29,930 bases of DNA, taken from positions 1-29,930 of the IMG/VR virus record IMGVR_UViG_3300046727_000502; one strand, written 5' to 3'. A program made the position numbers and the translations under genes. The stretch is from a virus. The notes beneath the pieces are model-generated. The model made no database searches. It saw nothing but the letters and a program-made list of their open reading frames with translations, and was not told the DNA's origin. Positions 8,622 through 16,053 of the stretch are shown piece after piece; position 1 is the first letter of the stretch, and each line of letters starts with the position of its first letter.

Positions 8622-8773
8622 ATTGGGAAGCCGAAGTGCGTTGGAACCTGGCCAAGAGAGCCGATGACGAACTGGGGAACCCTTACGCCGAGGCCCGGAT
8701 GTGGCGCCGGCTATGCTGGTTGCTGATCTTCTTCGATGTGATCTTAGGCGGGGTCTACTGGGCGAGCCGGTAG
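8618..8773 (+). CDS. Small single-span membrane protein (51 aa)
   Basis: A 51-residue protein with an N-terminal charged helix (WEAEVRWNLAKRADDE) and a C-terminal membrane span (CWLLIFFDVILGGVYWA). A GTG start at 8618 overlaps the previous TGA and follows GAAGGAGG nine bases upstream. It is the last gene of the rightward early operon, and its 3' end overlaps the convergent methyltransferase gene by 30 bases. The role is unknown; membrane placement is predicted from hydrophobicity alone. Confidence 0.6.
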   Translation: MNWEAEVRWNLAKRADDELGNPYAEARMWRRLCWLLIFFDVILGGVYWASR

Positions 8774-9382
8774 ATACTCCATTACCTGGCGGCCGATGAA
8801 TTCGGAGTAAGCCGGGGGAATAGCTTCCCGTGTTTCGTGGCGACTCATCCAGGGGACTCCCATTTCGTTGCGCCACAATTTCTCGGGATCTTGCCGCCCG
8901 AACTCCGCGTAGATCCGCTTGCGACTTTCGGACCGATGCGGATTCAAGACCGGCTCGGCGGCGAAACAATCTGGCACCAGCGCGAAAACGAAAGGCGATT
9001 CAAAAAGCCGGTGCCGGTGGACCCGCATGCCAAAATGTGTCCCGCAGAGGATCAGCGGCTCACGAAGCGGCGCTCCGAGCACGTTCTCGATACACCACGC
9101 CGCACCTGAACACTCCAAGCGTTCGCGCATGGCGTCGATAAGCATCGGCTGAGGAGTCGCCAGATGCCGCATTGCTGAGGAGTAGGACTGACACGGCGGG
9201 CTTGCCCAGATGAAATCAAACCCTTCTAGCGGAAACGTGAGTGCATCGGCCTGGTGGAACTCGTCTCCGATGTAACGGGGCTGAGGCTTGATGTCCACGC
9301 CTGTCACGTGGAAGCCTGCCATCTGAAGGCCTTTGGTGGCTCCGCCAGCTCCGCAAAAGAGATCCAGGGCGCGAGGATTCAT
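8744..9382 (-). CDS. DNA (cytosine-5)-methyltransferase
   Basis: A 212-residue short phage-type C5-methyltransferase that transfers a methyl group from S-adenosylmethionine to cytosine in DNA. Visible motifs: I, DLFCGAGGATKG (7-18); IV, SPPCQSYS with catalytic Cys64; VI, ENV (99-101); VIII, HRHRLF (122-127); X, IPPAYSEFIG (188-197). The target-recognition region between VIII and X is only ~60 residues. The ATG at 9382 is preferred because the family begins just before motif I; the longer frame adds 24 unrelated residues. No cognate endonuclease is nearby, so it is an orphan, probably protecting phage DNA from host restriction. It is last in the leftward operon. Confidence 0.92.
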   Translation of the reverse strand: MNPRALDLFCGAGGATKGLQMAGFHVTGVDIKPQPRYIGDEFHQADALTFPLEGFDFIWASPPCQSYSSAMRHLATPQPMLIDAMRERLECSGAAWCIENVLGAPLREPLILCGTHFGMRVHRHRLFESPFVFALVPDCFAAEPVLNPHRSESRKRIYAEFGRQDPEKLWRNEMGVPWMSRHETREAIPPAYSEFIGRQVMEYLPARPVDPA

Positions 9383-9591
9383 GACGCTTTCCCCTTCCAC
9401 GCCGCACTCCACTGCGGCTGAGTCAGTAGAGGCACGCTGCGCCACTCGAGCCATCCTTCGATAGTTCCCAGCACCATCGCTTCTTGTTCGTCTGGGGAAA
9501 GCTCCGGCCTCACAATTGAGATTGCGTGGAGCAGGAACCCCATGGCGTCTTCTATCGATTCGTCGGTTAAATGGTCAAACTGATGGCTCAT
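9379..9591 (-). CDS. Hypothetical protein (70 aa) upstream of the methyltransferase
   Basis: A 70-residue acidic helical protein (EDAMGFLLHAISIVRPE, then DEQEAMVLGTIEGWLEWRS). GGGGAG lies six bases before the ATG. It overlaps the preceding gene and the methyltransferase by ATGA, so it is co-translated with both. No family recognised. Confidence 0.65.
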   Translation of the reverse strand: MSHQFDHLTDESIEDAMGFLLHAISIVRPELSPDEQEAMVLGTIEGWLEWRSVPLLTQPQWSAAWKGKAS

Positions 9592-10649: not shown

Positions 10650-11300
10650 TCAATCTACGCCGAATTTAATGTGCGCGCGCACGATCGCGCACAGGGCCCT
10701 GTGCTCTGAGGGCCTGTCGGTGGTGTGGGCGGCGCCGGCGGCGGCGACGTAGGCGGCGGCGGCGGAGGAGGCGGCGGCGGCGACGGCGAAGTCGGCGGCG
10801 GAGGCGGAGTAGGCCGCGGCGGAGGCGGCGGCGTAGGCGTAGGCTGAGGCGTAGGCGGCGGCGGAGGCGGCGTAGGCTGCAGCGGAGGCTACGGCAGCGG
10901 AGGCGAAGTCGTAGTCGGAGGCGGCAGACGCTGCGGCGTAGGCGGCGGATGAGGCAGCGTAGGAGGCGGCGGAGGCGGCGCAGGCGGAGGCCTTGACCTC
11001 CTCTAGTACTGCCTCTCCGCGCGTCCACCTCTCTGCTGTCTCAATCGCTTGCAGCGGGCCCCGGTCACCAGCGGGTACAAAGCGCAAGGCGCGACGGGCG
11101 CACTGGCAGGCGCACCACACCAGTTTCCCGCGGTCCACCTTTGCTTTGGCTGCCCACCAGAGGAGCCAGTCGGCGCGCTCGCATTGCTCCCACGCTTCAG
11201 CAGCAGTGCGGGACTCTAGCCATTTCATGGCTGCGGCGCATGCGGATTTGCCTTCGAGCCAAGCGCGGAATTCGGTATTCGTTTGTGGAGATAAACTCAT
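10650..11300 (-). CDS. Alanine-repeat protein, Imm5-like N-terminal domain
   Basis: A 216-residue protein. Residues 10-95 (FRAWLEGKSACAAAMKWL, then ADWLLWWAAKAK and RRALRFVPAGDRG) resemble proteins annotated as Imm5-type putative immunity proteins, often found on phages and in actinobacteria. Residues ~103-195 are an extended Ala/Ser/Tyr repeat (AAxAAxxAA with Tyr at intervals). A conserved-looking end, ALCAIVRAHIKF, follows. The repeat would form a continuous amphipathic helix or solenoid. The function is unproven; in phages, immunity or exclusion is possible. The start overlaps the upstream stop (ATGA). The repeat tract is a DNA-level low-complexity GC-triplet array, so its length may vary. 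Confidence 0.6.
   Translation of the reverse strand: MSLSPQTNTEFRAWLEGKSACAAAMKWLESRTAAEAWEQCERADWLLWWAAKAKVDRGKLVWCACQCARRALRFVPAGDRGPLQAIETAERWTRGEAVLEEVKASACAASAASYAASSAAYAAASAASDYDFASAAVASAAAYAASAAAYASAYAYAAASAAAYSASAADFAVAAAASSAAAAYVAAAGAAHTTDRPSEHRALCAIVRAHIKFGVD
10735..10985. repeat. GGC/GGA-triplet low-complexity array coding the alanine repeat
   Basis: About 250 bp of irregular GGC, GGA and GTA triplets (plus strand) that code the Ala/Ser/Tyr repeats on the minus strand. Strong G/C strand asymmetry suggests replication slippage and possible G-rich secondary structure. Confidence 0.8.
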
Positions 11301-11596
11301 ATCGCCCAGATCCCGCTTTCATCGATAAAGTTTGGATCGTAGGGCTTCTGCCTGGCGGCTTCTTTGGCCACGTGGTAGCAGACCGCCGAGTGGTGGATGT
11401 TCAAATGGCGGCCGATCTCCTCCACGGTCAGCCCCATTTGCCGCAGGTCCCAGCAGGCCTGGCGCCGCGCCATCACGCAGGCGTGCCGATGGCTTCCCGC
11501 TAGAACCTGGCCCAAGGTCACCCCGTAGCGCGCCGCGGATTGAGCGACGATCTCTAGGATTTTCACGCGGGGCTGACGGACGGTACGGAGCCTCAT
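11297..11596 (-). CDS. DnaA domain-IV-like DNA-binding protein
   Basis: A 99-residue protein whose residues 35-80 match the layout of the C-terminal DNA-binding domain of DnaA: a SHRHACVMARRQACWDLR helix, then the signature-like LTVEEIGRHLNIHHSAVCYHVAK. In DnaA this region (IGxxFxxRDHxTVxxA) reads DnaA boxes. There is no AAA+ ATPase, so it can only bind DNA. GAGGAGG precedes the ATG. It overlaps the alanine-repeat gene by ATGA. Its place in the replication operon suggests a role in origin recognition, or in competing with host DnaA. Confidence 0.75.
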   Translation of the reverse strand: MRLRTVRQPRVKILEIVAQSAARYGVTLGQVLAGSHRHACVMARRQACWDLRQMGLTVEEIGRHLNIHHSAVCYHVAKEAARQKPYDPNFIDESGIWAI

Positions 11597-11859: not shown

Positions 11860-12462
11860 TTAGTCTGGCTTTGGCGGGTCATCAATCCCGAGCCGTTCGA
11901 GTTGTTCGCGTTTTCGCTGTTGCTCTTGTTCCCATAAATGTTGGCCGTCCCGTAATATTCGGTCAACATCAAACTGTGTAAGCGGTTTCCTTTCTAGGCG
12001 TGGTTTTGTTTCGGTCGCTGCAATCCGCCGCTCTACGTCTTCGCGCTCCGCCTCTTCCTTCAGGGCGAGTTGATGCCCCTTAACACCGCCATACTCGCAG
12101 TAGTCATAACGCGGATCGCAGAGAACGCATGGGCGCGCTAGTTTTCCTTGCTCTATCAATTCAGCACGGCCCAACGGAGCAATTTCTTTTTGAGGCGGCG
12201 CGTATTTGCACTGGAACAAAGAGCGCAGTTGCTGCGTCCCTCCGCGATCAGGCCAGCCGTTCTCCCACGTCTCGCGCGCCTCTTCGACCAAGCCCGCGGC
12301 CTGCCTCTCAGGAGACCAGACCACCCCATTGATGACAGCTCCTTTGCACCAACGGATCAGATCCATAGCTGTGGCTTCAATTGCCGCCTGTTGGTAAGGG
12401 TGGCCTATCGACACAAGCGAACCGGCCAAATTGAGAGCCACCTCGTGCCGTAGTTCAGCCAT
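11860..12462 (-). CDS. Replication-operon protein with Cys cluster (200 aa), helicase-loader position
   Basis: A 200-residue protein. Residues 1-90 are helical (MAELRHEVALNLAGSLVS, then WSPERQAAGLVEEARE). Residues 130-150 hold RPCVLCDPRYDYCEY, a Cys cluster. The C-terminus is a long charged coiled coil. The ATG at 12462 follows AGGAGG and overlaps the upstream gene by eight bases. It follows the initiator gene directly, where phages often carry a helicase loader (compare lambda O-P). No AAA+ motif is visible, so a DnaC-type loader is not supported. Its function is open. Confidence 0.65.
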   Translation of the reverse strand: MAELRHEVALNLAGSLVSIGHPYQQAAIEATAMDLIRWCKGAVINGVVWSPERQAAGLVEEARETWENGWPDRGGTQQLRSLFQCKYAPPQKEIAPLGRAELIEQGKLARPCVLCDPRYDYCEYGGVKGHQLALKEEAEREDVERRIAATETKPRLERKPLTQFDVDRILRDGQHLWEQEQQRKREQLERLGIDDPPKPD

Positions 12463-13573
12463 TGCCGGCCTCCTTGGCGCGCTCCTCATAAAGTTCGCGG
12501 ACTCGCTGTTCGAAATAACTCTCCTTTGCTGGGCCACGCGGCTTCCCCAGATAAGGCGGCGGGTCCGTCCCGTAGATCTTCAGCCAGTTCGAAGCCAGGG
12601 GCACCCAGCGGCCTTCGTCGTCCTCTAGCGACCGAATCCATCGTTCGGACTTCCGGTAAACGATCACTTGCTCCAGGACTCGGCATTGCTCCGCGTTGCT
12701 CAGGGCTTCAAAAGCAGGTTTGGTTTTGCCTTCATCGAACTTCTGGCTGGGGTATGCGGTTTTGAATTGTTGATAGAGAGAATCATCCTCCTCGTCCTCC
12801 GCTTTTGCCGGAAGGTGTTCGAGTTGTTGATCTTTTACTAAAGGCAGAGGAGGAGGAGGAGGAGGAGGAGGAGGAGGAGGAGGAGGAGGAGGAGGAGGTT
12901 CTTTCTCTTTAGTTCTTTCTGTTCTTTCTTCCTTATATATGCGTGGCTTTTTTGGCTGCGCGCGATTACCGTTTAAGCGGCGCGCGATTACCTCTTCGAG
13001 CTCTCGGTAAGCGCGCGCGAGCTCCGCGAGCTCCGCGAGCTCCTCGGGGTTATCGAGCGCGATTACCTCATAACTCGAAGCCTTTATTTTCCAACGTTTT
13101 ATGAGTGGTTTTAGGGGATTCCAGGACTCTGGAAACCAGGAAGGTAGTAATCGCGCGCGATTACTACTTTTTTCCTTACCCTCTTGGGGGGTCGCCCACG
13201 AATATAACCGAAGTTGGTCCTTTCGTAAAGGCCCCCCCTCCAAAAATCTTCGTTCTGCTAGACCGTATCCTTCGAGTTCTGACAGGCCGCGGGCTACGTT
13301 CTGCTTCAGTAACCCCGTTTGCTTGGCGATGTCGCTCTGCGTCAGAGGTCGCAACTTGCCGCCTATCTTCGTCAGGGCCATCTCCTGCTGGAACCCCATC
13401 GTGGCCAGTTCCAGACAGGCGTAGACGCGGCGCGCCTCGTTCGACAGCGAATTGAGCATCATGCGCTCAGCGCGGTCTTTGGTATTGAAGTAATACCTGC
13501 CATCCTCAATCACAATCGGCTTCGAGTCCGCTCCTGTGATTCGGAATCCCTTGCTGGCGGCTTTGGGCGTCAT
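12455..13573 (-). CDS. Phage replication initiator (winged-helix, O-like organisation)
   Basis: A 372-residue protein. Residues 45-125 form a winged helix (LSNEARRVYACLELATMG, then LTQSDIAKQTGLLKQNVARGL and YGLAERRF, read separately), which would bind origin repeats. Residues 135-225 are a charged linker containing ELAELAEL. Residues 226-242 are 17 consecutive prolines. The C-terminal ~110 residues (LYQQFKTAYPSQ, then WVPLASNWLKIYG) match the layout of phage replisome-organiser C-termini. It probably melts the origin and recruits the host helicase. The origin-like iterons lie inside the linker-coding DNA, as in lambda O. It overlaps both neighbours (ATGA upstream, eight bases downstream). Confidence 0.85.
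   Translation of the reverse strand: MTPKAASKGFRITGADSKPIVIEDGRYYFNTKDRAERMMLNSLSNEARRVYACLELATMGFQQEMALTKIGGKLRPLTQSDIAKQTGLLKQNVARGLSELEGYGLAERRFLEGGPLRKDQLRLYSWATPQEGKEKSSNRARLLPSWFPESWNPLKPLIKRWKIKASSYEVIALDNPEELAELAELARAYRELEEVIARRLNGNRAQPKKPRIYKEERTERTKEKEPPPPPPPPPPPPPPPPPLPLVKDQQLEHLPAKAEDEEDDSLYQQFKTAYPSQKFDEGKTKPAFEALSNAEQCRVLEQVIVYRKSERWIRSLEDDEGRWVPLASNWLKIYGTDPPPYLGKPRGPAKESYFEQRVRELYEERAKEAGNG
12848..12898. repeat. Pure trinucleotide microsatellite (AGG)17 / (CCT)17
   Basis: Seventeen perfect AGG units on the plus strand code 17 prolines, all with the codon CCT, in the initiator gene. Unit loss or gain keeps the reading frame, so only the linker length would change. The strand-asymmetric purine tract borders the AT-rich part of the probable origin and could form a triplex. 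Confidence 0.97.
12899..13167. other. Probable replication origin: iterons plus AT-rich tract
   Basis: GCGCGCGATTACC occurs exactly at 12958-12970 and 12980-12992 (22 bp apart). It recurs with one mismatch at 13055-13067 and 13153-13165, and in inverse orientation with one mismatch at 13006-13018 and 13146-13158. The last pair forms a perfect 24-bp palindrome (13144-13167; half-site GTAGTAATCGCG). A roughly 42-bp tract (12899-12940), about 74% A+T and almost purely pyrimidine on the plus strand, lies on the C-terminal side. The order domain-iterons-AT tract copies lambda's ori within gene O. Confidence 0.7.
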
Positions 13574-15928: not shown

Positions 15929-16053
15929 AAAGCATCTCCGCCCTGGTGCAGGGGCCCCAAATGCGAGTCCGGTGAACGGGCTCCATAGTACATTAACCCT
16001 ATCAGAATTACGGGTATGAATCTATTGAGCAAAGTTGCACACTAGGGCCAGCG

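Follow-up and report, generated by a model that had tools for sequence, protein, structure and literature searches.

The replication origin of a phage, probably one of soil bacteria, very likely (probability about 0.9) lies within the gene of its own initiator protein, as judged from sequence comparison. The DNA analyzed, referred to here as the window, comprises positions 1-29,930 of virus record IMGVR_UViG_3300046727_000502 (29,930 bases); by profile matches, its gene content includes an integrase, a terminase, and head genes. A first-pass annotation had proposed a lambda-O-style origin inside the initiator gene, and this proposal is supported by the iterons, the adjoining tract, and the covariation of iteron arms with the recognition helix among 16 members of the family. 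The position within the gene, the palindromic iterons, the A+T tract, and the arm/helix covariation together support an origin recognized by the winged helix encoded in the same gene. The features concerned are as follows.

12455-13573 (- strand): initiator open reading frame (P0001, 372 aa), matching PHROG_678, "replication initiation O-like", at E 8e-5; N-terminal winged-helix domain, linker encoding the putative origin, variable C-terminal domain
13244-13453 (- strand): winged-helix DNA-binding domain, residues 41-110, predicted from AlphaFold2 and from generic wHTH matches below cut-off
13283-13312 (- strand): recognition helix (residues 88-97, LLKQNVARGL), covarying with the iteron arms
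13144-13167 (unstranded): iteron 1, perfect 24-bp palindrome GTAGTAATCGCGCGCGATTACTAC, 11 of 11 inner pairs, formed by the last two one-mismatch copies
13048-13067 (unstranded): iteron 2, imperfect dyad GGTTATCGAGCGCGATTACC, 98 bp from iteron 1
13006-13025 (unstranded): iteron 3, a good arm at 13006-13018 (-) and a poor arm, 42 bp on
12980-12992 (+ strand): iteron 4, exact half-site, 33 bp on
12958-12970 (+ strand): iteron 5, exact half-site, 22 bp on
12899-12940 (unstranded): putative DNA unwinding element, 73.8% A+T, 85.7% pyrimidine on the + strand and hence purine on the coding strand
12848-12898 (unstranded): (AGG)17 run, equal to 17 Pro codons and one arm of an inverted repeat, from sequence, translation, and arm test
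12786-12800 (unstranded): partner arm TCCTCCTCGTCCTCC of this simple-sequence inverted repeat, from the arm test

Iterons, tract, and inverted repeat in the window

The 13-mer GCGCGCGATTACC is present exactly at 12958-12970 and 12980-12992, 22 bp apart, and with one mismatch at 13006-13018 (-), 13055-13067 (+), 13146-13158 (-), and 13153-13165 (+), so that the two exact and four near copies in both orientations, together with the perfect 24-bp palindrome at 13144-13167 described in the first-pass annotation, were all located. No further copy with 0 or 1 mismatch was found in the 29,930 bp, and allowing up to 3 mismatches gives 32 matches where 18.5 are expected, the observed number being reached in none of 100 shuffles. 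Iterons 1 and 2 are dyads, and iterons 4 and 5 are half-sites. Read along the coding strand, the winged-helix codons are followed by palindrome 1, dyad 2, the sites at 42, 33, and 22 bp, the tract, and the 17 Pro codons. The top palindrome exceeds what synonymous-codon shuffling yields (p = 0.003), as does the count of repeats (8 against a null mean of 2.35, p = 0.005), and inverted-repeat iterons, one feature of a lambda-type intragenic origin, are found within the initiator gene. Translation gives the 13-mer as GNRA in one place and as VIAR in another, in agreement with the earlier reading.

The second feature of such an origin, an A+T-rich tract beside the iterons, is also found: the stretch previously described as 74% A+T and pyrimidine-biased on the C-terminal side has the composition listed above. 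According to nearest-neighbor energies, the least stable 40 bp of the window starts at 12900 and the least stable 50 bp at 12890, and at a length of 60 bp a site at 15985 slightly exceeds the tract in instability.

Beyond the tract, an inverted repeat was first noticed post hoc. Its arms are simple runs whose unit varies by member (GCA, CGG, GTC, CAA, TCC, CTG, and others), and they exceed synonymous shuffles at p<=0.05 in 11 of the 16 members. The test was not significant in L025, L033, L034, L038, and L050, the first three of which carry, by eye, a loopless (A)CTACTAGTAG(T) that the arm test cannot count. DNA fold energies reach p<=0.05 in 5 of 16 members (combined z -2.5 for n=16 and -2.0 for n=13), with single values that include z +0.2 for the window, which is not significant, and z +2.2 for L025. 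Because the repeat was noticed post hoc, its fold energies are weak, and it was found in few lambdoid controls, the element is proposed with moderate confidence only.

Conservation of the array and covariation of its arms

Sixteen distinct initiators, namely that of the window and 15 relatives, were compared, derived from uncultured virus contigs, a Solibacteraceae MAG (L027), and a further genome from that order (L054). The relatives were reached via the terminase first and then via initiator alignments, the final alignment scan returning 17 loci, all on contigs found earlier. Scans with single initiator proteins returned the same phage only, or nothing; the domain of L012 had no match in the phage collection or among plasmids, and megablast of 24.9 kb of the window had no match. 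Matches were obtained in 8 of 396 genomes of the phylum, G001 being the one strong match, and in 3 of 257 genomes of the order. Of the weak matches, L043, L046, and L047 were inspected and set aside as other proteins, and L044, L045, L048, and L049 were left out. The counts also omit L030 (as L027), L037 (as L036, cut), L039 (nearly identical to L038), and duplicates of contigs already included (e.g., L026, L032, and L041). L053, with one weak dyad (8 of 11 pairs), was left out because it is distant and contains N in two short stretches.

The best palindrome of the open reading frame beats synonymous-codon shuffles in 14 of the 16 members (p 0.003-0.037), the exceptions being L035 (p 0.29) and L040 (p 0.27). 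It lies within the array region in all members except L035 (15/16); in L025 the best palindrome is dyad 2, and in L027 it is equaled by another one close to the start codon. Repeats are in excess at p<=0.05 in 13 of 16 members, among them L040 (p 0.045), and their count is not significant in L028 (p 0.11), L035 (p 0.97), and L038 (p 0.16). A conserved protein from which the repeats are absent would argue against the origin; no close relative is of this kind except L035, which has degenerate sites only.

The arrangement of the sites is also shared. The motif W[FIL]P is found in 13 members and absent from 3; with L035 (no palindrome there) and L038 (motif elsewhere) excluded, the center of the first dyad lies 17.5-20.5 bp ahead of its codons in 9 of 11 members and 32.5 bp ahead in 2. 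Counted with arms of at most 2 mismatches, dyads 1 and 2 are separated by 98-101 bp in 11 of 15 members, with other spacings of 113 bp (L033, L034), 133 bp (L025), and 156 bp (L054; L035 not counted), and a step of 33 bp, equal to 11 codons or about three helical turns, occurs in 10 of 15. After the iterons, the purine/A+T tract is kept among members with an unusual codon choice. In the pooled tracts, the ratio of AGR to CGN among Arg codons is 35:1, compared with 83:477 in the rest of the genes, and that of GAA to GAG among Glu codons is 46:12, compared with 254:258; these pooled tests ignore relatedness (Fisher p 7e-26 for the pooled count), and the single CGN, which counts against the claim, comes from L028, whose tract was misplaced by the motif.

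The middle of the palindrome is GCGCGC or a near form, by eye, in all members except L054 (TGTACA), and the outer arms vary between members. Distances between arms correlate with distances between recognition helices (r 0.56, p 0.0002, n=16). In partial Mantel tests, the helix predicts the arms after correction for the remainder of the domain (r 0.54, p 0.0001, n=16; r 0.51, p 0.006, n=13), and the remainder corrected for the helix carries no signal (p 0.53 and 0.50). In a subset of 11 members that excludes L035 and L054, helix (p 0.004) and remainder (p 0.010) are both significant, and two columns that lie outside the helix, 39 and 76, rank alongside column 91 within it. As 7 of 13 inner branches remain open in a tree built without the helix, shared descent may still contribute to the covariation. 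Within one three-member clade (support 100/100), the helix and arm of L051 differ together from those of its sisters L036 and L038.

Individual residues and bases were paired by eye, with residues numbered as in the window protein and bases counted from the dyad; the arms were likewise picked by eye, those of L025 and L035 not from the first dyad. Asn92 accompanies T at -5 in 6 of 6 sequences from about four lineages, the mixed-site L035 being left out, and His92 accompanies C at -5 in 5 of 5, again from about four lineages. Arg94 is paired with G at -6 in 12 of 13 (the base is C in L051, and one arm of L035 has A), and Ala or Thr at 94 with A at -6 in 3 of 3. The related phages thereby suggest how protein and DNA sites change together. 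A more ambitious reading is offered tentatively and is, on balance, doubtful: the initiators would form a distinct O-like clade in phages of Acidobacteriota, with a readable residue-to-base code and an inverted repeat that loads the helicase without a phage loader. In such a code, residue 92 (Asn/His) may set T or C at -5 and residue 94 (Arg versus Ala/Thr) may set G or A at -6, with GCGCGC and the lattice nearly fixed, and the inverted repeat, just beyond the tract, may consist of arms built from simple tri- or tetranucleotide units that vary by member without loss of pairing.

Two other explanations of the repeats are weighed by these data. An autoregulatory operator, at which a wHTH regulator represses its own gene beside an incidental A+T tract, is improbable: MarR/CodY/Crp-type winged helices, which are regulators, do rank first in a Foldseek search of the PDB, none at E<=0.001, and in L027 (4001-4026) an additional exact copy of the palindrome lies some 10 codons from the gene start, perhaps for autoregulation, but the window array begins more than 400 bp into the gene and an exact arm copy near the start codon is found only in L027 among the 15 members searched (L054 left out). 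The kept order of array and then purine tract, the codon choice, and the PHROG profiles, which name replication initiators, also speak against an operator. Even less probable is that the DNA repeats merely reflect a helical repeat of 11 residues in the linker of the protein. Although 33 bp corresponds to 11 codons and an 11-residue pseudo-repeat can be made out by eye in several members, the dyads surpass shuffles that preserve the protein, the arms covary with the recognition helix, and the first and second dyads are read in different frames in 10 of 15 members (by hand), as is the 13-mer within the window. The sites are therefore kept as DNA, which strengthens the earlier claim that the repeat is maintained as DNA and not as peptide.

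The initiator protein and its phage

In the AlphaFold2 model, residues 41-110 have pLDDT values of 75-89, and the mean of the whole model is 67.6. PHROG_678 is matched by all 13 N-terminal domains scanned (E<=0.01), with weak scores for the window protein (4e-6 for the domain, 8e-5 for the whole protein), against E 1.7e-35 for lambda O; in addition, L040 matches PHROG_270 over residues 74-351 (E 2.4e-8), and the distant L054 has no PHROG match at E 0.01. The curated model PF04492 (Phage_rep_O) was not listed for P0001 at E<=1 or for 6 relatives at E<=0.01, and was absent among the 25 of 32 families listed for the 13 N-terminal domains; TIGR01610 was not listed for P0001 and 3 relatives. As positive controls, the O proteins of lambda, HK97, and a Mannheimia phage match PF04492 at 3e-29 or better, and lambda O matches TIGR01610 at 5e-39. 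Comparison with lambda O domains by hhalign gave a probability of 39% (E 3e-4), and the best fold match in BFVD, named lambda GpO N-terminal, has E 3.5e-4, TM 0.43, and rmsd 14. Since the curated O models are unmatched, PHROG_678 is matched, and the fold matches are weak, the protein belongs to the wide O-like group defined by PHROG_678, outside the lambda O family of PF04492/TIGR01610, and is at most a very distant relative of lambda O. Despite lacking a Pfam Phage_rep_O or TIGR01610 match, the system, judged by its layout, appears to work like a lambdoid origin.

The C-terminal domains vary between initiators, and the N-terminal part and the origin are kept; by eye, the window, L038, and L040 have one C-terminal type in common, and the types in L027 and others are different. 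C-terminal domains may be exchanged with the origin as the joint. The least credible of the alternatives is that the repeats, instead of being an origin, serve in partition or as a recombination joint at which domains are shuffled. Differing C-terminal domains beyond the site would be expected of a module joint, but no ParA/ParB match was listed among the 31 window proteins scanned, and the adjoining unstable tract and lambdoid layout indicate an origin.

The same phage is represented by a contig of 51,502 bases (IMGVR_UViG_3300046722_000334), classed as linear, both ends of which lie in an (AGG)n run with an exact 51-nt overlap, and the window crosses the joint. The genome is therefore circular or permuted, of about 51.45 kb, and was broken by the assembler in the AGG run. 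The host probably belongs to the Acidobacteriota, because the L027 initiator sits in a Solibacteraceae MAG. Other features were observed near the initiator. The third open reading frame downstream (11297-11596, -) encodes a 99-aa protein resembling DnaA DNA-binding domain IV (PF08299, E 2.6e-7, 31.0 bits against a cut-off of 31.5; also phrog_27829), for which a viral_contigs scan returned only the same phage. A DNA methyltransferase gene (8744-9454, -; phrog_363, E 2.9e-32) lies about 3 kb downstream of the initiator on the same strand; the iterons are CG-rich. The stretch 10719-10991 is self-similar, with shifted copies 73.5% identical.

With the origin placed inside the initiator gene, the best explanation would be a temperate phage that follows the lambda plan. 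The N-terminal winged helix, probably as a dimer, would bind the palindromic iterons, a recognition supported by the comparative data, at dyads set in helically phased steps of 98, 42, 33, and 22 bp in the window. The resulting nucleoprotein array would open the adjoining A+T/purine tract, and the inverted repeat and the C-terminal domain may assist in recruiting the host helicase. A search for the DnaB_C and IstB/DnaC families returned no match at E<=0.001 in any of 9 records, one being the 51.5-kb record with 51-nt overlapping ends and the others possibly fragments.

Comparison with lambda and lambdoid phages

Lambda-type origins have been studied chiefly in enterobacterial phages, and the Acidobacteriota are a phylum with few studied phages. 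The initiator family would extend the lambda plan to phages probably infecting this phylum, and no report of the family was found in open-licence PMC papers. It offers a natural series of initiator-iteron pairs, seemingly co-evolving within a fixed scaffold, so that a change of origin specificity without loss of function becomes directly testable, as does the reason why the origin remains intragenic. The lack of a helicase or loader match, together with the inverted repeat, raises a second question, namely the mode of helicase loading.

In lambda and seven relatives, the repeats lie in the gene and are followed by a purine tract (8 of 8 by eye, annotated in lambda only), and the 40 bp of lowest stability in the gene coincide with the tract in 7 of 8, lying within the repeats in 1W. 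An inverted repeat directly past the tract was found by arm search (score at least 8) in lambda and the Mannheimia phage, 2 of 8 controls; in mEpX1 a repeat lies about 95 nt further on, in 1W the match consists of the iterons, and none was found past the tract in SEN34, HK97, UAB_Phi20, and the Erwinia phage. Fold energy past the tract is significant in 2 of 7 lambdoid controls (lambda and UAB_Phi20).

Published descriptions agree with this: ori lambda is described as four 18-bp iterons and 38 bp of A+T-rich DNA (PMC3349717), and the lambda iteron as a 19-bp imperfect inverted repeat (PMC7466680). Like lambda (L072), the present system has inverted-repeat iterons in mid-gene, between an N-terminal DNA-binding domain and a C-terminal part, followed by an A+T/purine tract and then an inverted repeat. 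Unlike in lambda, the pitch is 98/42/33/22 bp, against 20-24 bp in lambda by annotated positions, and the iteron sequence is unrelated, as the first-pass annotation had held. Lambda O matches both PF04492 and TIGR01610 and the window initiator neither, and no match was found here in the search for the DnaB_C and IstB/DnaC families. The layout is that of lambda, with sequences of the phage's own.

The initiators of P22, L, and lambda have different iterons, each inside its own gene, according to PMC8022706. As with gene 18 of P22, gene 18 of phage L, HK97, and others, the present proteins are distant O-like initiators with their own intragenic iterons and differing specificity. In contrast to that three-phage account (PMC8022706), 16 members sharing one lattice are compared here, which makes helix residues comparable with bases, and unlike those of the P22, L, and HK97 modules, the hosts look like Acidobacteriota.
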